Positions 1 to 14,679 of a DNA stretch of 26,378 nt are shown one piece after another. A model generated the notes under the pieces. It ran no database searches and was not told the origin of the DNA. It saw only the letters and a program-made list of their open reading frames with translations. The stretch is from NCBI GenBank assembly GCA_013416795.1, contig RQSC01000024.1, positions 271,391-297,768 on the forward strand, written 5' to 3'. Every line of letters starts with the position of its first letter. The first letter of the stretch is position 1. The translations under genes were made by a program, and so were the position numbers. This DNA comes from Prasinococcaceae sp. CCMP 1430 (lineage: Eukaryota > Prasinodermophyta > Palmophyllophyceae > Prasinococcales > Prasinococcaceae).

Positions 1-274
1 CATGCACACCGGCGACTTCCGGCTCGAGGCGCTCGGGGACGGCGATGCGCGCTCCGCGCTCCCCGAAGCCGTGACGCGTGCTCCCGTGGATGAGCTGTGG
101 CTTGACGACACCTACCTGCGCTCAGGCGCAGAGTTCCCTGCGCGCGTGGTCGTGCTCAAGGCGGGGGGCGGCGATGGCTGCGTCGGGTGGCGGATCGGAC
201 GCGGCATCGGCCGGGGCATCGGCGAGCGACGCGACGGCGGCCATCGATCCTTCCGTCTCGGGCCTACTGACTGA
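1..274 (+). CDS. SNM1/Artemis-type metallo-beta-lactamase nuclease, fragment
   Basis: The frame open from the window edge encodes HTGDFR (residues 2-7 counting from the ATG at position 2) and then LWLDDTYLRSGAEFP. The first matches the HTGDFR motif of DNA-repair metallo-beta-lactamases (SNM1/PSO2, Artemis, Apollo) and the second their L-LDTTYC-P---FPS stretch. These enzymes are 5' exonucleases acting in interstrand crosslink repair or end processing. The N-terminal catalytic part (HxHxDH motif) would lie outside the window. After about position 160 the similarity ends; the frame then runs to a TGA at 272-274 while overlapping the Sec16 start codon at 174. The beta-CASP half that normally follows FPS (roughly 150-200 residues) is not found nearby. 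It may therefore be a 3'-truncated gene, a pseudogene remnant, or an exon whose continuation was lost in assembly. The family call rests on two short motifs; the ATG at 2 is internal, not the gene start. Confidence 0.5.
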   Translation, partial: MHTGDFRLEALGDGDARSALPEAVTRAPVDELWLDDTYLRSGAEFPARVVVLKAGGGDGCVGWRIGRGIGRGIGERRDGGHRSFRLGPTD

Positions 275-3200
275 GGTCGAGGCCGAGGCGCCCGCGCGCC
301 ACAGGGAGAGCGGCGCGGAGCCGGGTGCCGACGGAAGCGAGGGCTACGCTGCAGGCGCCGAGAGCGAAGGCGTCGAGGCAGGGGGCAGCAGCGGCAACGA
401 TGGGAGCACCGACGCCGATGAGTGGCTGGCAGAGAGTACGACGCCGCGGAGCGTGACCGCCACCCTGACCGAAGCTGAGGACTTCATCGCGAGCGGCCCC
501 AGTGGGGACATCAGCGATCCAGTCGACGATGCCGACGCGACCGCGGGCGATCGTGGCGAGGACCCGATTCACAGTGAGCACGAGCGTGGCGAGGCTGGCG
601 TTGGTGTCGAGGCAGACGCAGGGGGGACTACCGGCTGGGACACCGACGAAGTTGCGTGCGCCGACGTGCCACTCAAAGATGATGCAAGCGCGGCCCTTGA
701 TCCTGCCGCGGAAGGCTGCGTCGCGAGCGCCGCGACTGCCAACGGTCCGATGTTTGAAGGCGGTGCGAGCTCGCCGGAGGGGCAGCATCAGCCGCCTGCA
801 GCGGAAGCCGAACCGGTGATCGCTGTCGCAGCTATGGCGGCAGGCCCAATGTTCGGTGCCCCACGCACCGGCAGCGGCGATGCATTCTTCGGCTCTCTCG
901 GCGGCTGCGCGGACCCGTCGCCATCCGGACGAGCAGCGGGTGCCTCCGCCGTCGAAGCGCCCGCAGCTGCCCAGGTTCGAGCGGCAAGTACCACCGCCCC
1001 GATCGCGTTCTCATCGTCGACGGATGATCTCGCTGGCACGGGCTCTTTCGATGCGCTTTTCGGAGGTGGCGCGACAGACCCGCAATACCAGCAGCAGCAG
1101 CAGCAACAGGAGCCAGGTGGTGGCCTGCCCCAGGATTGGATCGAGCAAATCGATCCCTCCTCGGGGTACCCCTACTACCTCAACACAGCTACAGGCGAGT
1201 CGTCGTGGGAGGTGCCCTCTTTGCCGCAGACGCAACAGCAGTCCGAGATGAGCGCGGCGCAGCCAATCTCAGCGGGCGCACAACACGGGCAAACGCAGGT
1301 GGAGACCACGGTCGCCGCCGACGAGAAAGCGCACCAGGCGCAGCAGCAAGAAGCCAGCGCGCCAGGTGCGGACGCTGCTGCAGGGCACCATGAAGGCCTC
1401 CCTGAGGGCTGGATTGAGCAAATTGACCCTTCGAGTGGGTACCCGTATTTTCTCAACACGATCACCGGCGAGAGCAGCTGGGAGAGGCCGAGTTCGACGC
1501 CACAGCTGGACGCGCAATCGTGCCCGCCCGTGATGTCGTCGGAGCTGGGCGCGCCTGACGACGGTGGCGCGTCATTCTTTGACAAAATTGGTGAGTCCAC
1601 GGCCGCTTCGGAGCCTGCGCCTGCATCTCCCGCCCCGGAGCCCGCGCCTGCCCCGCCCGCCCCTACGGAGGAGTCCAATGGCGACGACGGTTCACTCTTT
1701 GAGGGTCTGCCACCGCCAGAGGAACCCTCTGCGACTTTGCAGTGCGCACCTGGCGCGGATGGCCAGGTTGCACTAGAATCGGCAGCCGAGGAGACACCAG
1801 CCGTGGCGGCCGTCGAGCCATCTACTGAGACAGCAGCTGCTGAGGCTCACGCCGTCGCCGGCACGCAGAGCGCCGCGCAGAGCTCCGAGGCAGATGGAAC
1901 GAGCGCCGAGGACGTCACGTTTGCCGGCGCCGATGTGGATCAAGAGCAGAGTGCCGAGGCCGGCGAAGAGACGCCCGCTGCTTGTGCAGCCGACTCTATC
2001 TCAGGCTCGGACGACCTTCCGGACGGGTGGACCGCGCAAACCGATCCGGCCACAGGGCACACATACTACCTGAACACCACAACGGGGGAATCCTCTTGGG
2101 AGCGACCTGCTCCAGCAGCTGGTCCAGTCGCTGCCACACCCGACGCTACTGCAACAGCTGCCACCGGTCATGTCGACAGCCTCGCATATCCGCATGTGGG
2201 GCAGCACGAGCAAGCGCATGCTCAGCAAGAGCATGCGTCAGCCAGCCATGCCGAAACTCATGGCGAGCTCCCGGACGGGTGGGTGTCGGCTGTGGATGAG
2301 TCGTCAGGATACACATACTACACAAACACACACACGGGCGAGTCTTCGTGGGAACCTCCGGTCGAGTCCCCAGCACCGATGGTGCCAGCGATGCCAGCGG
2401 CGCCAGCGGCGCCGGAAGCGCCAGCGGCGCCGGAAGCGCCAGCGGCGCCGGCGGCACCAGCGCCGTTCACGCCCGTCAAACCCGCTGCCGACGCTACGTC
2501 CGCGCCCTCACCCGTCGCCTTCACTCCTGTGATGCCTTCGCAGCAGCAAGCTGCGGCACCTGTTCCATTTGTTTCGGCGATGGCAGATGACGCCCAACTT
2601 CAGCGGTATTCAGCACAGCAACAGCAACAGCCATTTGCTCCCACCGCGTGGCAACCGCCCGGCTCGTCCGCTGGATTCGGATTTCCGCAGACCTCGTCGC
2701 TTCAGCAGCAGCAACAGCCAAGGCAGCTTCCGCCGCCGCCCCGCACGCGCGACGAGGCGCTGCGGTGCCCGGCCGGACGGCCGCCGTGCCCCGCGGTGGC
2801 ATTCGGATCGAATGGTCTCATGGTTGTGGCTGGTGCCGGTTCAGGAACCATCTCGGACTGTGGCATTGGATCTGTCGACATGTATCCCCTCGGGCCATTC
2901 CTCAAAGACGGCGGTGTGGATCCCGACTGCGAGTTCCTGGAGCATGCGGCGGCGGTCGGCCCAGCGCGCGGGGGAAGTTGCAACGATAAGTTTGCCGCCG
3001 TGGGCCAGGAGCTGGCGGCACACCGCGAGCAGCAGGACCAGGCGTCACTCTGGCGCTTCCTGGGGACATATGCGCGGCGCAAGGGTGACATGGGGGTGGC
3101 AGGGCTCAGCAGCGGGGCAGGTGGCGCCGCCGAGCTCGCTGCGGTGCTCAATGTGGAATCAGCGCAGACGGCGGGCGCTCTCATCTCGTCGGCGTCGAAT

Positions 3201-5123
3201 GGCACCACGGGCCCACACGCAGAAGCGACGGCAGCAGCCGATGTCGAAGCCAAGCTCGCAATCGGTGACCTTGCTGGTGCCCACAGCACTTGCATGGCTG
3301 CCGGCGGCGCGCTGTCGGCACTAGGCTTGCTTATCGCGCTCAGCGGGCGGCTTGGTCCAGACGTTCTGGGCCGCGCCGCCGCCGAGTACACCTCTGCGAC
3401 GTTCACAGCAGGAACGCCACTGTCGAGTGCCGCGGCAGTGCTCGCGCGCAATGCCAGTGCCATCTTCACCTCCGCCGCTGCAGACAACGGCGCGGCGCTC
3501 CTGGGCACCTGGCGCCGACATCTCGCATCGATGGTGTGTGCGGGTGCAGAGCCTGTAGCTGTTGGCACGCTCGGAGACCGGCTGTGGGACGTCCGTGGCG
3601 ATTTGGTGGGTGCGCACCTCTGCTATGTGCTGGCGGGCTCGACACCCGAAGCCTTTGCACCTGGTGCCCGCCTGTGCCTCGTGGGCGGCGATCACAAGCG
3701 CTTCCCGCGCACATTCGCACGCGCTGAGACCGTGCTGGCCACCGAGTGCATCGAAGCCGCAGTCATGTCCGCTGCTGGGGCCGCAGGCTCGGGCGCCAGC
3801 GCGCACCCTGCCTCGATGGCACACTTCGCGCCGTACAAGGTGTACATGGCCTCCCTATTGGCAGAGCACGGCAAGGGCAAGGCGGCAGCTGCGTACGCCG
3901 CCGACGCGGCCAAGGCACTGCGCGCTCATTCACCGTCGCCTGACCGCCCGACGGCGGCGATGGTGGCAGCGATTGCCATGGAAGATCGCCTCAAGGGAGG
4001 CGCGGGTGGTTTTCTCGCGGGCATTGGCGGCAACGTCGGCGCTACAGCCAGCAAGATGTTCGGTGGTATTTTCCGCGCGCTCGACAAGGTCATCGGCGAC
4101 GCCGAGCCTGAAATGCAGCAGCAGCAGCAGCAGCAACACATGCAAATGCATCAGGGTGGAGGGGAGGCGAACGGACACGCGCACGCCACGCCACCAAGGC
4201 ACGCGAGGGGCGCAGGAATAGGCGGGCAAGCGCAAGCGCCCGTGGCGCCGGCGAATACGCCCGTCGCGCAGGGGAGCACGGGCGCAAATGGTATGACAGG
4301 GGGCGAGTCTGATACATCCAAGAGCGAGAGCGTGGACGAGAACAAGACCCCGAATAAGGCTGAGGGTGCGGGAGTGATGGGGCGCATGCTCAGTGGGCTC
4401 TTCGGCGCATCCAAGTCCAAGCAAGCCAAGCTCGGTGCGGAGGAGAACAAATTTTTCTACGACGACAAATTGAAGATGTGGCGCGTGGAAGGCGAAGACA
4501 TCCCCGACGAGTTCAAGCCACCGCCGCCGCCGCCGAAGACGAGCTTCCATTCTGATCTCAAGAAGGCCGACGGCGCTCAAGCGGTGGAACGTGGTATCGG
4601 CGGTGGCGCAGGCGCAGGCGCTGCTGGAGGTGGTGCTGGTGGAGGCGGCACTGGTGCCGCATCAGCGGGGGGGGAGGGCGACCCGCTGTGCGCCCCGCCG
4701 CCCCGGCGTGCAACTACACGCGCAGGCCGCCGCGCCAACGTGCGCTCGCGCTACGTCGACACGATGGGTGGGAGCGGTGCCTCTGCTAGCGCAAACGCTG
4801 GCGGGGGCTTCGCAACTCCGCCCACACCTGCAGCCTTCATGCCGGTCACACCCCCGGCGCCGAATGGGGGCGGCGGAGGCGGCGCCTCGCCCTCGCCCGC
4901 GGCTTTCATGGTGCCTGGCCCGGCGCCCGTGGCGCAGGCCGAGGCACCCACGGCTGAAACGAGTGCTGCTACCCCGCCGCCAATGGATGCCATGGCAGCG
5001 TTCGTCGCCGAGCAGCAGGCCCAGGCCGCAGCTGCGCCCGTCTCCGCGCCTGCGGCGCCTGTGCCCGCGGAGCCGTCCAGCGGCGCGTTTGACGACAGCG
5101 GCTTCGAGGACGTTTCGCTCTGA
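174..5123 (+). CDS. SEC16: Sec16-like COPII scaffold protein with four WW domains
   Basis: A single uninterrupted frame of 1649 residues from ATG 174 (context GGCGGCGATGGCT) to TGA 5121-5123; the frame is open further upstream, but this is the first ATG in good context. Sec16 organises ER exit sites and binds COPII coat subunits. Sec16 signatures seen: a central conserved domain at about residues 861-1257, with CPAVAFGSNGLMVVAG, LWRFLGTYARRKGD, VEAKLAIGDLAGA, LGDRLWDVRGDLVGAHLCY and an FAPYKVYMASLLAEHG-type helix, plus the C-terminal KFFYDDKLKMWRVEGE motif near 1426 followed by a proline run. N-terminal to this are four WW domains, at about 318-349, 409-440, 615-646 and 699-730, each with two Trp 22-25 residues apart and a GESSWE-P ending. 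The rest is low-complexity Ala/Pro/Glu/Gln linker, with glutamine runs encoded near 1090-1110 and 4115-4135. WW domains bind proline motifs; I do not know them as a standard part of Sec16. Confidence 0.85.
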   Translation: MAASGGGSDAASAGASASDATAAIDPSVSGLLTEVEAEAPARHRESGAEPGADGSEGYAAGAESEGVEAGGSSGNDGSTDADEWLAESTTPRSVTATLTEAEDFIASGPSGDISDPVDDADATAGDRGEDPIHSEHERGEAGVGVEADAGGTTGWDTDEVACADVPLKDDASAALDPAAEGCVASAATANGPMFEGGASSPEGQHQPPAAEAEPVIAVAAMAAGPMFGAPRTGSGDAFFGSLGGCADPSPSGRAAGASAVEAPAAAQVRAASTTAPIAFSSSTDDLAGTGSFDALFGGGATDPQYQQQQQQQEPGGGLPQDWIEQIDPSSGYPYYLNTATGESSWEVPSLPQTQQQSEMSAAQPISAGAQHGQTQVETTVAADEKAHQAQQQEASAPGADAAAGHHEGLPEGWIEQIDPSSGYPYFLNTITGESSWERPSSTPQLDAQSCPPVMSSELGAPDDGGASFFDKIGESTAASEPAPASPAPEPAPAPPAPTEESNGDDGSLFEGLPPPEEPSATLQCAPGADGQVALESAAEETPAVAAVEPSTETAAAEAHAVAGTQSAAQSSEADGTSAEDVTFAGADVDQEQSAEAGEETPAACAADSISGSDDLPDGWTAQTDPATGHTYYLNTTTGESSWERPAPAAGPVAATPDATATAATGHVDSLAYPHVGQHEQAHAQQEHASASHAETHGELPDGWVSAVDESSGYTYYTNTHTGESSWEPPVESPAPMVPAMPAAPAAPEAPAAPEAPAAPAAPAPFTPVKPAADATSAPSPVAFTPVMPSQQQAAAPVPFVSAMADDAQLQRYSAQQQQQPFAPTAWQPPGSSAGFGFPQTSSLQQQQQPRQLPPPPRTRDEALRCPAGRPPCPAVAFGSNGLMVVAGAGSGTISDCGIGSVDMYPLGPFLKDGGVDPDCEFLEHAAAVGPARGGSCNDKFAAVGQELAAHREQQDQASLWRFLGTYARRKGDMGVAGLSSGAGGAAELAAVLNVESAQTAGALISSASNGTTGPHAEATAAADVEAKLAIGDLAGAHSTCMAAGGALSALGLLIALSGRLGPDVLGRAAAEYTSATFTAGTPLSSAAAVLARNASAIFTSAAADNGAALLGTWRRHLASMVCAGAEPVAVGTLGDRLWDVRGDLVGAHLCYVLAGSTPEAFAPGARLCLVGGDHKRFPRTFARAETVLATECIEAAVMSAAGAAGSGASAHPASMAHFAPYKVYMASLLAEHGKGKAAAAYAADAAKALRAHSPSPDRPTAAMVAAIAMEDRLKGGAGGFLAGIGGNVGATASKMFGGIFRALDKVIGDAEPEMQQQQQQQHMQMHQGGGEANGHAHATPPRHARGAGIGGQAQAPVAPANTPVAQGSTGANGMTGGESDTSKSESVDENKTPNKAEGAGVMGRMLSGLFGASKSKQAKLGAEENKFFYDDKLKMWRVEGEDIPDEFKPPPPPPKTSFHSDLKKADGAQAVERGIGGGAGAGAAGGGAGGGGTGAASAGGEGDPLCAPPPRRATTRAGRRANVRSRYVDTMGGSGASASANAGGGFATPPTPAAFMPVTPPAPNGGGGGGASPSPAAFMVPGPAPVAQAEAPTAETSAATPPPMDAMAAFVAEQQAQAAAAPVSAPAAPVPAEPSSGAFDDSGFEDVSL
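2398..2462 (+). repeat. 18-bp coding tandem repeat (APEAPA)
   Basis: About three imperfect copies of an 18-bp unit (GAAGCGCCAGCGGCGCCG) lie inside the Sec16 frame just after the fourth WW domain and encode an Ala-Pro-Glu-rich linker. The length is a multiple of three, so copy-number change would keep the frame. Confidence 0.8.
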
Positions 5124-6505: not shown

Positions 6506-9516
<3,011 letters not shown>

Positions 9517-9563
9517 ACCACACACGCAACAAGGCAGCGCAAAGGACGAGCTGTCTCGCCCAT

Positions 9564-9595
9564 GTGATGTAAGAAAATGTATAGTACATTGTCAA
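9564..9595. terminator. Shared 3' end of CDC5 and phytochrome: TGTAA signal and hairpin
   Basis: Only 75 bp separate the convergent stop codons of CDC5 (ends 9516) and the phytochrome (ends 9592). This AT-rich patch contains TGTAA (9568-9572, + strand), the polyadenylation signal typical of chlorophyte algae, then a perfect inverted repeat AATGTA-TAG-TACATT (9576-9590) two bases from the phytochrome stop. Being symmetric, the hairpin could serve both transcripts. Function is inferred. Confidence 0.5.
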
Positions 9596-12500
9596 TGGAG
9601 CCCCTTCTCTAGCTCTTCGAGCCGCCGCCTGAGCGCGGCATTCTCCTCGCGCAGCGCCGCGACATCACCGCTGTCGGGCGCAGCCACGGAGGCCCTCTTT
9701 TGGGCAGGCTGAGCATGGGCGGGCTCATCAGAGCCGCCATCGCAGGGGCGCGCGCGCTTGCGCTCGCCATCTCTCAAACCGTCGCCAGGCCTGGCCCTCT
9801 CGGTCCCGTTACTATCGGTCACCTCCAGTCGCACCAGTCCGGGCAGTTCGTCAGTACCAGGCACCTCGCCCAGGGCAGCCGCATGTACGATGCTCTCCAA
9901 GCTGCCAAGGAGCGTCCTGACGGGGATCGGCTTCGCGCACAAGAAGTCTACGCCCTTGCGCGCGTACGTGCGTGCGTCGTCGGGCATTGAGTTGGCCGTC
10001 ACGAGCACAACCGGCAGACGGCGAGGGGGGTCAAAACTGCTGACGTTGAGTACTTCTTGGTGTGCCCGAGCCTCCGCCTCGACTGCCCGCAGCTTCTGCG
10101 TCACGTCTGTGCCGTACAGCCCGGGCATGACCTCGTCCAGCAAGGCGATGTCGAATGATGACGTGCGAAGCAGCTTCAGAGCGTCTTTGCCGTTCATGGC
10201 GGTCTCTATGTGTGGCGAAGGACTTCCCTGACTCTTGGCCGCCTTGCGCAATGCCATCTGCAGAATTCGCACGTTGGTGTGTTCGTCGTCGCAGATTAGC
10301 ACGCGCAAGGCTTCCTTTGGCACTGCGCCGGCCTTCCCGCTCGCAGCACCATCCGTCGACTGTTCACCGCGCGCGGGCGCAATGACGTTCGCCGGCGCGG
10401 AGGCTCCCTCAGGTGTGCTCAATTCCGGTGGTGCGCGCGCCGAGGCCGACGGCGCCTGCGCGCGCGCACTTGCGCCACTGACGATTGACTTCGCGGTGCT
10501 TTCGCTGGCCGCTGCGCGCGCATTTGCAGTGCCGTCGCCGCCGCGAATTGTGTGCACGGCCGACTCCATGCGGCACTCGGAGGGCACGCCTGTTGCCATG
10601 AACTCAAACAGACCGCGCGGAATTGGCGATGAGGGCCTCTCAGAGCGGACAAGTGCATCGCCACGAGCGCTAGGGGCAATCCTGAAGGGAACGGTGCACG
10701 TGAAGATCGAGCCCGCGCCCAGCACGCTCTCGACGGAGATATCGCCACCCAAGCAGCGCGCGATCGTGCGCGCGTAGTACAAGCCTAGGCCAGTCGACCC
10801 AAACTTGGAAACGTTGCTCGAGGCAAGTTCGAAACGCTTGAAGAGCTTCTCACAGTCCTCAGGAGCAATGCCCACGCCAGTGTCGACCACGGCAATTGAC
10901 ACGAGCACGCGGCTGCCACCACCATCACGGCTATTCGAATCGTTGCTCCCTCCAGCGATGTCCAAGCCTTGCGTGTCTGCAAGGCTCAGATCTCCAAACG
11001 CAGGCCCTGCGACTTGGCCCTGGCCACGGTCACCAGAGGCACCGCCGCTGCGGTGCCGAGCGCTGGGCGTCCCAGCCGGCGCGTCGTGAGGCAGCGTCGC
11101 TCGCGTGCACTCGGCATGGAGTTCAATTTGCCCCGCCGGCGTGTACTTCACGGCATTCCACACTATGTTCGAGATCATCTGCGTCAGGCGGACGTTGTCG
11201 CCCACAACGTGGCGAAGTCCGCGCAGCCCCCCCACGTCAAGACCCAGCCGTAGGCCCTTGGCGCTTGCTGCGGGGCGCACTCCCTGGAGGCAGTCCGAAA
11301 TTGCAGCTTGCAGGTCGAAGGCCTGCGAGTTCAGCTTGAACTTGCCTTGCTCTATGGCCGTCGCGTCCAACACGTCGTCCACCACACGCCGCAGTTGCCT
11401 AGTGCAGGACTCAGTTGTCTGCAAAAGCTCGCCCATCTCTTCGCCGAGCATCGAGGAGCCCGAACGCATGAACTCGGTGGCGGCCACGATTCCGTTGAGA
11501 GGGTTGCGGATCTCGTGGCAGAGGAAGGAGATGGTGTTGGACTTTGCGCGTACTGCGGCCTCGGCAGCCATGCGCACCGCCTCTGCCTTCTCAAGAGCGC
11601 GTAGCATCGACTGGTCCTGCAGGTAGATGAGGCAACCGCCCTCACCTGGAGCGCCATCTCTCTCGGCGGCGGGGCGCACGCTCAGAACACACTCCAGCGC
11701 GCGCCCGCGGCACATCACGGTGGTCCGCACGTCGGCTTCAGCGAGCGCGCCCGAGGCAGCCTGCGAGCTTCCTTCTGCGCGCGTGGCACGAATGAGCGCT
11801 AGCTCCAGAGGGAAGAGCTGCTTGGTAGCCACCTGCATGCAACTTGCACCGCCCGCGCCTGTCCCTATCACCTCCTCAAGGAAAAGCTTGCCCACAACCT
11901 CGCGTGATGCTATCCCGCCTGTGACGACCTCCATCGCGTGATTCCAGAGAGTCACGCGCAGGTTGCGATCCAGGCAGAGGACTGGCGACTGCATGTTTTC
12001 GAGGAATCCAGGCTGCTCAGTCGAGGCAATGGCCGCGGAAATCTCCTTGGCGAGGACGACTGCGCTCGCTTGAGCGGGGGTGTTGCGCGCGGAGCGCACA
12101 CCGGCAGGCGCTGCCACTACATCGCCGATGAGGCGCAGAATGCAACTTTCGCCAGATGCGGTCGTGCCCATGATGGCGAAGGCAACCCCGTGCGCCTCAG
12201 CGGTACCAACTCCCTCACCGTCGGATGCACTGTCGAGCGTGCTGCTCAGCGCTGCAGCCAGGGGTGACGCTGGTCCACCCTCCAGGCACGAGACCAGGGG
12301 CGTCCCGATGACTGCGTCAGCGTATAACCCTGTGCTCTGCTGTAGCCACCGATTCCACGTGCAGATCTCGCCGTTCGCGCTGACAGTCATGCATGCCATC
12401 GGGGCTCGATCGATGAGAAGGGAAAGCTCCGCTGCGACTTTCTCCAGCTCGCCCATGTCGCTCAATCTCGAGCGGTTGAGCACCGAAGCAATGCCTGCGC

Positions 12501-14679
12501 GCAGCAACGATCCTGTGGCCGCTTCGACTGCGTCACGCAAGACGGCCACTAGCGCACCCGCACCACGCGCGGCAATACGGGGCCAAAGCTCGCATGTGCC
12601 GCGCAGCTGCTCCAGCACGACTGCAAAAGATGAGCGCGGTCCAAGGCGAGGTGCGCCCTTTACATCATCGTCACCAGCGCCATCGTCGTGATCGATGACA
12701 ACAACGTCCCTGCTATCCCCACGTGCTCCGGCCCACTTGATGTCCTGCAGCAGTTCTGCTCGCGTCCAGATGATCATGCCACCAATGGCGCGGCGCCCCT
12801 TTGGGCTGCCGACGGCACTGCCGCCACTCTCTGCGATTTCAGGATCAGAGCAGGCTCCTTCTTCAAGAGCGCTCGCTCCATTGTGCCCGTCGGTGCCTGT
12901 CACGCCCGCGGGTAGTTCGATGGCAACCACGCCAGCGATGCCTCCGGCGACCGCCTGTGCGGCGGCCAGAGCGGCGTAGCCCGCGACCTCAAGCGAGTCG
13001 CACACAAACACGCCCGGGTGCTGCGCGTCCTCGTGAAGCTTGCCCGAAGACTTAATCCAGCGAGCCACGCGCGCAGCCTCGATGCGCCCGGATTCCGCTG
13101 CGCCCTCGCATGCAATGACAGTGCAACTGCTGTCGAGCACGAAGACCCCATCGGCGTCAAAGGGAACAGCCTCACGCAGTGTGTGTAGGGACCCTGACAG
13201 CACTTCGGTTGCTTTCTGCCTCGGATTGTCCGCGATGATGAGCTCCACCAACCGCGAGTTGGCGCGCGCGTTGCGGTCAGCTGTGGACAGCCGGGCGATC
13301 TCGAGCTCGTGCTCCAGGCGCTGTGTGAAGATCTGTGCAATCATCGACAGACAAACGCGCGTGTGCAGGGGCACGAAGCGCGGCGAGATGTTGTGGCAAA
13401 CCACCATTCCCCACATGCGCAGCGCGGGCTTGCCACCGCCAGCGCTCGACGAGCCGCCGATGTCTTCGTGTGCGTCATCGGCCGAGTCCGCCGCAGCGGC
13501 GGCAATGATGAGTGGAACGACAAGAGTGCCACGCACACCCATGTTGTTGAGATATTCTTTGTGACACCCGATCGTCCCGCGGATCTGTGAGCCGGCCAAA
13601 AGGGCCTGCCGGCAACCAAATGCTGAGGCGAGGTCGCCCTCCGCGCACTGCAGCACAGGCGATGGCGTGTCGTTGACGTCCGCCAGCAACCGCGGCGCTG
13701 GGTGCTTGGTCAAGAGCCTCCGATTGACCTGGGGAAGGTCGGTCGCCGGCCAATGCAGGTGCAGGAAGGACGGGACTGACTCGGCGCGGCGTGCTTCGGC
13801 GCACACCTCGCCGTGCATGTCCGCGTGCAGGCGGTACACCATGCAGCGGTCGAAGCCAGATATCTCCCGCACCTCGCAAGCGAGCGCCTCGCAGAGCGTG
13901 GCCTCGCCGCGCAGGGCGCGCAGCCGCATCGCCGCGCCCGCCGCCGCGCGGTGACATTGCGACACGCCCGGTGGTAGGTCGCGCACGTCATCTGCTGAAC
14001 TGTCTGAGTCAGAGTCAGAGTCGGAGCCACAGCCACCAAATGTAGCGCCGACAGCCGCACCGGTATGACTCCCGTCAGCGTTTGCTTCGCACCCGGGGAG
14101 CGGGGCCAACGGGCTCGTATGTGTCGATTCAAGGTCTATCACAACTCCTTCCTCAGTCACGTGTACAGCAGCAGCGAGCGCTCCACCGTGCTCCTTCGAC
14201 CGCCGCCGCGCGTCGGCCTCGCGTGGCGCGATAGCGATCGGCGTGCGTGCTTCAGGCGCTCCCGATGCCGCAGCGGCGCAGATTTTGCGCAACGAGCGCG
14301 ACGTCAGGGCGCGGGACGCTGGCGCTCCGAGCAGCTCGGACGCGCCCACGCCGAGCATCGGCGCGCACGTCTCCGACGCTGCGATGACGCGTGGCGCAGG
14401 CGGGCGTGCCGTAGGCCCCGCACGGCCGCCGCTCTGGCCCTTGCCGCCCTTAGGCGCGGCTGCCAGCGTGTGAGCGCCAAATGCGAGCGCGTGCGCCCGC
14501 TCGAGGATGAGCACGGCGCCATGTCCTTGGACGACGCCAGGACGATAAATTCGCTCCGTCACCTTCTCCACAAGCCGCGCACGCTCGGCCGCGTCGGCGC
14601 CGTCCGCGGCGCGCGCGGCAATCACATCCGCGTCGGCCGCGTCGAGCTCGTCGGCTGTGCGCACCGCGGCGCGCGCCAT
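9592..14679 (-). CDS. PHY: Phytochrome with PAS-GAF-PHY-PAS-PAS-histidine kinase-receiver architecture
   Basis: Intron-less, 1695 residues from ATG 14679; the frame is open 46 codons farther, but a TATA-like element lies between the two ATGs, so the inner one is preferred. Domains: N-terminal PAS about 49-189; GAF 254-454 with bilin-attachment Cys372 in IRGTIGCHKEY, PATDLP, and the MWGMVVCHN strand; PHY 469-714 with intact tongue motifs (IKWAG, then PRSSF at 681-685); two PAS domains about 746-854 and 890-1022; HisKA with His1055 in CHEIRNPLNGI; ATPase with the N-box (NIVWNAVKY), DTGVGI, FKRF and GSTGLGL; receiver 1458-1599 with the acidic pair CDDE, acceptor Asp1515 (LLDEVMP), Thr (VLVTANS) and Lys (CAKP). 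A basic patch (ERKRAR) and a short leucine zipper (ALREENAALRRRLEELEKGL) end the protein. All catalytic and phosphotransfer residues are present, so it should be a functional light-regulated hybrid kinase, unlike land-plant phytochromes, which lost the His. Phytochromobilin or phycocyanobilin is the likely chromophore. Convergent with CDC5. Confidence 0.96.
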   Translation of the reverse strand: MARAAVRTADELDAADADVIAARAADGADAAERARLVEKVTERIYRPGVVQGHGAVLILERAHALAFGAHTLAAAPKGGKGQSGGRAGPTARPPAPRVIAASETCAPMLGVGASELLGAPASRALTSRSLRKICAAAASGAPEARTPIAIAPREADARRRSKEHGGALAAAVHVTEEGVVIDLESTHTSPLAPLPGCEANADGSHTGAAVGATFGGCGSDSDSDSDSSADDVRDLPPGVSQCHRAAAGAAMRLRALRGEATLCEALACEVREISGFDRCMVYRLHADMHGEVCAEARRAESVPSFLHLHWPATDLPQVNRRLLTKHPAPRLLADVNDTPSPVLQCAEGDLASAFGCRQALLAGSQIRGTIGCHKEYLNNMGVRGTLVVPLIIAAAAADSADDAHEDIGGSSSAGGGKPALRMWGMVVCHNISPRFVPLHTRVCLSMIAQIFTQRLEHELEIARLSTADRNARANSRLVELIIADNPRQKATEVLSGSLHTLREAVPFDADGVFVLDSSCTVIACEGAAESGRIEAARVARWIKSSGKLHEDAQHPGVFVCDSLEVAGYAALAAAQAVAGGIAGVVAIELPAGVTGTDGHNGASALEEGACSDPEIAESGGSAVGSPKGRRAIGGMIIWTRAELLQDIKWAGARGDSRDVVVIDHDDGAGDDDVKGAPRLGPRSSFAVVLEQLRGTCELWPRIAARGAGALVAVLRDAVEAATGSLLRAGIASVLNRSRLSDMGELEKVAAELSLLIDRAPMACMTVSANGEICTWNRWLQQSTGLYADAVIGTPLVSCLEGGPASPLAAALSSTLDSASDGEGVGTAEAHGVAFAIMGTTASGESCILRLIGDVVAAPAGVRSARNTPAQASAVVLAKEISAAIASTEQPGFLENMQSPVLCLDRNLRVTLWNHAMEVVTGGIASREVVGKLFLEEVIGTGAGGASCMQVATKQLFPLELALIRATRAEGSSQAASGALAEADVRTTVMCRGRALECVLSVRPAAERDGAPGEGGCLIYLQDQSMLRALEKAEAVRMAAEAAVRAKSNTISFLCHEIRNPLNGIVAATEFMRSGSSMLGEEMGELLQTTESCTRQLRRVVDDVLDATAIEQGKFKLNSQAFDLQAAISDCLQGVRPAASAKGLRLGLDVGGLRGLRHVVGDNVRLTQMISNIVWNAVKYTPAGQIELHAECTRATLPHDAPAGTPSARHRSGGASGDRGQGQVAGPAFGDLSLADTQGLDIAGGSNDSNSRDGGGSRVLVSIAVVDTGVGIAPEDCEKLFKRFELASSNVSKFGSTGLGLYYARTIARCLGGDISVESVLGAGSIFTCTVPFRIAPSARGDALVRSERPSSPIPRGLFEFMATGVPSECRMESAVHTIRGGDGTANARAAASESTAKSIVSGASARAQAPSASARAPPELSTPEGASAPANVIAPARGEQSTDGAASGKAGAVPKEALRVLICDDEHTNVRILQMALRKAAKSQGSPSPHIETAMNGKDALKLLRTSSFDIALLDEVMPGLYGTDVTQKLRAVEAEARAHQEVLNVSSFDPPRRLPVVLVTANSMPDDARTYARKGVDFLCAKPIPVRTLLGSLESIVHAAALGEVPGTDELPGLVRLEVTDSNGTERARPGDGLRDGERKRARPCDGGSDEPAHAQPAQKRASVAAPDSGDVAALREENAALRRRLEELEKGLH

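Follow-up and report, generated by a model that had tools for sequence, protein, structure and literature searches.

A complete prasinophyte-type phytochrome gene with a leucine zipper tail in Prasinococcaceae sp. CCMP 1430

Background

The phytochromes of prasinophytes, examples being Micromonas pusilla PHY, Dolichomastix DtenPHY1 and Prasinoderma coloniale PcolPHY1, have the order PAS-GAF-PHY-PAS-PAS-kinase with a conserved histidine, and in most of them a receiver (REC) follows the kinase, PAS-PAS-HK-REC being the usual form of the group (PMC4525182). For PcolPHY1, a spectroscopic characterisation is on record (Rockwell 2014, cited in PMC12558739). Canonical plant phytochromes, in contrast, lack both the phospho-acceptor histidine and the receiver (PMC4525182). 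The hybrid phytochromes of bacteria, fungi and diatoms (HK-REC) unite a light sensor with a kinase and a receiver in a single polypeptide, but the PAS-PAS repeat is missing from them (PMC4525182 for prokaryotes and fungi; PMC4422448). A photoreceptor combined with a leucine zipper is found in the aureochromes (LOV-bZIP), where it takes the form of a true N-terminal bZIP domain (PMC12558739).

Gene and domain architecture

The window, meaning the whole stretch of 26,378 nucleotides that was analysed, has a GC content of about 67% (range 65-69%) and encodes on its minus strand a phytochrome of 1695 amino acids, which reads unbroken from ATG to TGA and requires no intron (Table 1). Pfam domains occur in the order PAS_2, GAF, PHY, PAS (two stretches), HisKA, HATPase_c and Response_reg, all of them above their curated cut-offs. 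The photosensory core (PAS-GAF-PHY) possesses the GAF cysteine, Cys372, within GCHKEYLNNMG, as well as DLP at residues 314-316, and the tongue has WAGA (649-652) and PRSSF (681-685). The kinase has its H-box histidine, His1055, in CHEIRNPL, the N-box NIVWNAVKYT (1171-1180), G1 DTGVGI (1266), the F-box LFKRFE (1279) and G2 GSTGLGLY (1294), with a low-complexity insert in HATPase_c at about 1190-1255. All of the receiver residues (D1464/D1465, D1515, T1561 and K1583) are also present, completing the set of H, N, G1, F and G2 boxes with a D/D/T/K receiver that marks a hybrid histidine kinase. Pfam and the residue check agree in this with the sequence-only reading of the gene, which had described one intron-less protein with every bilin-binding, tongue, kinase and receiver residue in place.

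The stop codon of the phytochrome lies approximately 75 bases from that of a convergent gene for a CDC5/Cef1-like splicing factor (Myb_Cef), the open reading frame of which ends at 9516 (window 9516-9594), so that the 3′ ends of the two genes probably overlap. Elsewhere in the window (90-5123, plus strand) there is a gene for a Sec16-type protein (TPR_Sec16, E 8e-20) with four N-terminal WW domains, a combination which may be unusual for Sec16.

Table 1. Position of the phytochrome gene and its features in the window
Feature	Residues	Window position	Strand	Basis
Phytochrome CDS	1695 aa	9592..14679	-	Open frame, Pfam, PDB matches
PAS_2 (N-terminal PAS)	93-185	14125..14403	-	Pfam
GAF, including Cys372	about 237-450	13330..13971	-	Pfam, PDB alignment, motif check
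Putative bilin-binding cysteine	Cys372	13564-13566	-	Aligned with chromophore cysteine of plant PHYA
PHY domain	about 451-735 (Pfam match 635-719 only)	12475..13329	-	Pfam, PDB alignment
Tongue motifs WAGA and PRSSF	647-685	12625..12741	-	PDB alignment, motif check
PAS-PAS repeat	about 745-1020	11620..12447	-	Pfam (two stretches), plant PHYA alignment
HisKA	1046-1112	11344..11544	-	Pfam, motif check
Predicted phospho-acceptor	His1055	11515-11517	-	Within HisKA
HATPase_c with N, G1, F and G2 boxes	about 1160-1340	10660..11202	-	Pfam, motif check
Receiver domain	1460-1600	9880..10302	-	Pfam, motif check
Predicted receiver phospho-acceptor	Asp1515	10135-10137	-	Motif check
C-terminal tail	1601-1695 (95 residues)	9595..9879	-	Motif check, AlphaFold
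Basic patch RKRAR, candidate monopartite NLS	1640-1644	9748..9762	-	Motif check
Leucine zipper helix	1670-1694	9598..9672	-	Heptads, shuffles, PDB search, AlphaFold

Type of phytochrome

Among solved structures in the PDB, the protein is closest to the phytochromes A and B of plants, which score 243 and 240 bits, with alignments that span the cysteine-bearing GAF domain, the PHY domain with its tongue, the PAS-PAS repeat and the kinase region, while entries for histidine kinases and bacterial phytochromes score 119 bits or less. Identity as a canonical plant phytochrome is ruled out by His1055 and the receiver, the catalytic boxes being retained as well, and unlike the HK-REC phytochromes the protein has the PAS-PAS repeat. 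This repeat, together with a conserved-histidine kinase and a C-terminal receiver, corresponds to the definition of the prasinophyte type (PMC4525182). By its domain architecture, the gene is assigned as a complete phytochrome of this non-canonical green-lineage type.

The earlier suggestion that the protein would differ from both land-plant and bacterial types is correct for the canonical forms of each; it does not stand as a claim of novelty, PAS-PAS-HK-REC being usual in prasinophytes (PMC4525182). Apart from its zipper tail, the protein is an unremarkable representative of a type of phytochrome already known, and its architecture is not new. No mention of a zipper tail in prasinophyte phytochromes was found in the literature examined.

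This is the only gene in the 24.5 Mb genome to match the PHY domain. A scan of viral contigs gave no related sequence, prokaryote genomes gave four distant matches only (kinase or phytochrome-like), and the only NCBIfam models to match were those of bacterial kinases, far below cut-off.

C-terminal tail

The tail had been described as approximately 95 residues with a basic patch and leucine heptads, and these elements were all found again; their order had to be corrected, as the tail ends in the zipper (1673-1694) and RKRAR sits mid-tail (1640-1644), about 28 residues before it. Up to about residue 1669 the tail is predicted by AlphaFold with low confidence, the linker between receiver and zipper being of low complexity, and this part is probably disordered. 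The GC content of the tail by codon position (0.80/0.55/0.72) is inside the range of other segments of the gene (PHY 0.73/0.53/0.67; N-terminus 0.85/0.59/0.77). No duplicate of the tail was found in the genome, where the next best match has an E-value of 0.42. A Pfam match of the tail to DUF6779 was rejected, being below cut-off.

Leucine zipper

The zipper, DVAALREENAALRRRLEELEKGL, consists of three heptads (residues 1673-1694) with V1673, N1680, L1687 and L1694 at the a positions and L1676, L1683 and L1690 at the d positions. This a/d pattern arose in just 5 of 100,000 shuffled tails (0.005%) and occurs nowhere else in the open frames of the window (at least 60 residues each; 40,216 residues in total). 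It is not a chance pattern. All three g-e′ pairs (D1672-R1677, E1679-R1684 and R1686-E1691) are attractive, which is the case for 0.56% of shuffles. Hydrophobic a and d positions, an asparagine at an a position and attractive g-e′ pairs are features of parallel two-stranded coils. At the level of sequence and single-chain prediction, the heptads, Asn1680, the charge pairs and the helix of a parallel dimeric zipper are all present.

The helix was predicted by AlphaFold, run without an alignment, as one continuous stretch over residues 1670-1694 with block pLDDT values of 79-95, preceded by a linker at about 30-48. As this run used no alignment and left the receiver unfolded, it is evidence of helix propensity and does not bear on how the receivers are arranged. 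A search of the PDB with the zipper gave as its nearest sequence CC-Di (4dzm), a peptide designed as a coiled coil; with an E-value of 1.3 this is a weak match, to be counted as an analogue and not a homologue.

Only the zipper half of the bZIP_2 profile is touched (positions 34-53 of 54), at 15.2 bits against a cut-off of 22.3, and the residues before the zipper contain no basic region, in contrast to the aureochromes. It is therefore a leucine zipper without being a bZIP domain, as the sequence-only reading had held. The same reading had proposed dimerisation, and the heptads, Asn1680 and g-e′ pairs fit such a predicted role, the most likely form of which would be homotypic pairing given that the g-e′ charges are self-complementary. 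With three heptads only, the zipper is short for a stable coil by itself and may need the avidity of an existing phytochrome dimer.

The main rival to this homodimer is a zipper that acts as a heterodimer surface for a partner with a coiled coil of its own (a bZIP or another kind, for instance a transcription factor), by which the phytochrome would modulate gene expression directly. Potential partners are encoded in the genome, with at least six bZIP and at least two bHLH matches, either of which the zipper could equally bind, and the weak resemblance to bZIP_2 points the same way; against this, the self-complementary charges argue for self-pairing, and we consider partner docking unlikely.

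Nuclear-signal question

The tail was examined with rules for monopartite (K[KR]x[KR]) and bipartite (KR-x10-12-(3 of 5 basic)) nuclear localisation signals. RKRAR fits the monopartite rule and is the sole such motif in the protein, which could suggest that the tail is an import module as well as a dimeriser, allowing the phytochrome to bring itself into the nucleus. As the tail is arginine-rich and the motif is at chance level (it arises in 5.9% of shuffled tails, and shuffling the whole protein gives an expectation of 0.41), the patch says little on import and RKRAR is at best a weak candidate for it. No bipartite signal was found in the tail under the rule applied, the second cluster (QKRAS) being 2/5 basic and its spacer longer than the usual 10-12. 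The phytochrome of Micromonas pusilla is cited as moving from the cytoplasm to the nucleus in light (Duanmu 2014, cited in PMC8209157), a precedent which makes nuclear entry by some other route plausible by analogy, but such entry is not general, as the dualchrome of Pycnococcus has a PHY part that stays in the cytoplasm when expressed in tobacco (PMC8209157). Self-import through the patch is considered improbable, and the nuclear entry earlier proposed from the tail sequence is not upheld. Very improbable, and more so than self-import, is the view that the tail arose by drift of GC-rich coding sequence as a neutral extension specific to this lineage, without a selected function: the stretch from receiver to zipper is of the low-confidence, low-complexity kind that this would leave and the protein has further low-complexity inserts, but the zipper pattern is found at 5e-5 in shuffled tails and is absent from the other open frames of the window.

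Relay partners and chromophore genes

Fifteen receiver matches were identified in the genome. A histidine phosphotransfer (HPt) locus has one exon ending in HQFKGSSSKC and a second exon in a different frame; with the two joined by eye, the match to HPt scores 34.8 bits and so passes the cut-off of 24.6. At a separate locus, a receiver is followed by a GARP-type Myb domain (Response_reg and Myb_DNA-binding), which is the form of a type-B response regulator. Both HPt and response-regulator partners of a phosphorelay are accordingly encoded in the genome, and a His-Asp route from the phytochrome receiver to transcription would appear to be available. With these genes present, no output domain on the phytochrome itself is needed, and the proposal that the photoreceptor carries one of its own is not supported by the tail, where neither a DNA-binding domain nor any other effector domain is present. 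In an exon-by-exon search of the genome, in which introns or gaps could hide a gene, there was no match to heme oxygenase (PF01126) or ferredoxin-dependent bilin reductase (PF05996).

Other receiver-bearing loci were also noticed. On contig C66 (35000-39000), a receiver is joined to a kinase-like domain, after which comes a stretch resembling a coiled coil, an arrangement which recalls SPA proteins and the REC-WD40 proteins of Mamiellales (PMC12704426); the WD40 part was not seen within this piece, past which the frame runs. Contig C38 (36000-40000) encodes a green algal hybrid kinase of the form HNOBA-HisKA-HATPase-REC, with a heme-NO-binding-associated domain. On contig C62 (569 kb), a short kinase C-terminus and then a receiver are encoded at about 409900-410300. 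This stretch resembles alphaproteobacterial sigma-54 regulator genes, being 73-76% identical over about 170 bases to plasmids of Microvirga, Tistrella, Qingshengfaniella and Shinella, and represents either gene transfer or an assembly join.

Proposed mechanism

The reading that we favour, with moderate confidence, is that of a hybrid-kinase phytochrome with a His-Asp relay, the tail of which serves as a flexible linker ending in a homodimer zipper. The light sensor would bind a bilin and drive the histidine kinase, and phosphate would pass from His1055 to Asp1515 of the protein's own receiver. From Asp1515, it could then be handed to the separate HPt protein and on to response regulators, for example the type-B REC-GARP protein. 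The tail would act as a flexible, partly basic tether with a short parallel leucine zipper at its end, and this zipper would pair the C-termini of both protomers in the phytochrome dimer, which may keep the two receivers close to each other.

A functional precedent for dimerisation through an extension of the receiver, without homology, is provided by the phytochrome-associated AtRR1, in which a C-terminal receiver extension gives an arm-in-arm dimer (PMC8292422). The AtRR1 dimer differs in using a beta-strand arm, a different fold, in place of a zipper. A receiver pair clamped by its own C-terminal zipper would be an undescribed wiring of phytochrome output, possibly one that docks nuclear bZIP factors too, but as a whole this more far-reaching proposal is doubtful.

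Significance

Prasinophyte phytochromes represent the state before kinase chemistry and the receiver were lost in green plants. For this reason, a single genome with genes for a complete phytochrome, an HPt protein and a type-B regulator would offer a clean test of a red-light His-Asp relay in early green plants. The zipper tail adds a testable question of its own, namely whether the output end of the phytochrome dimer is held together.
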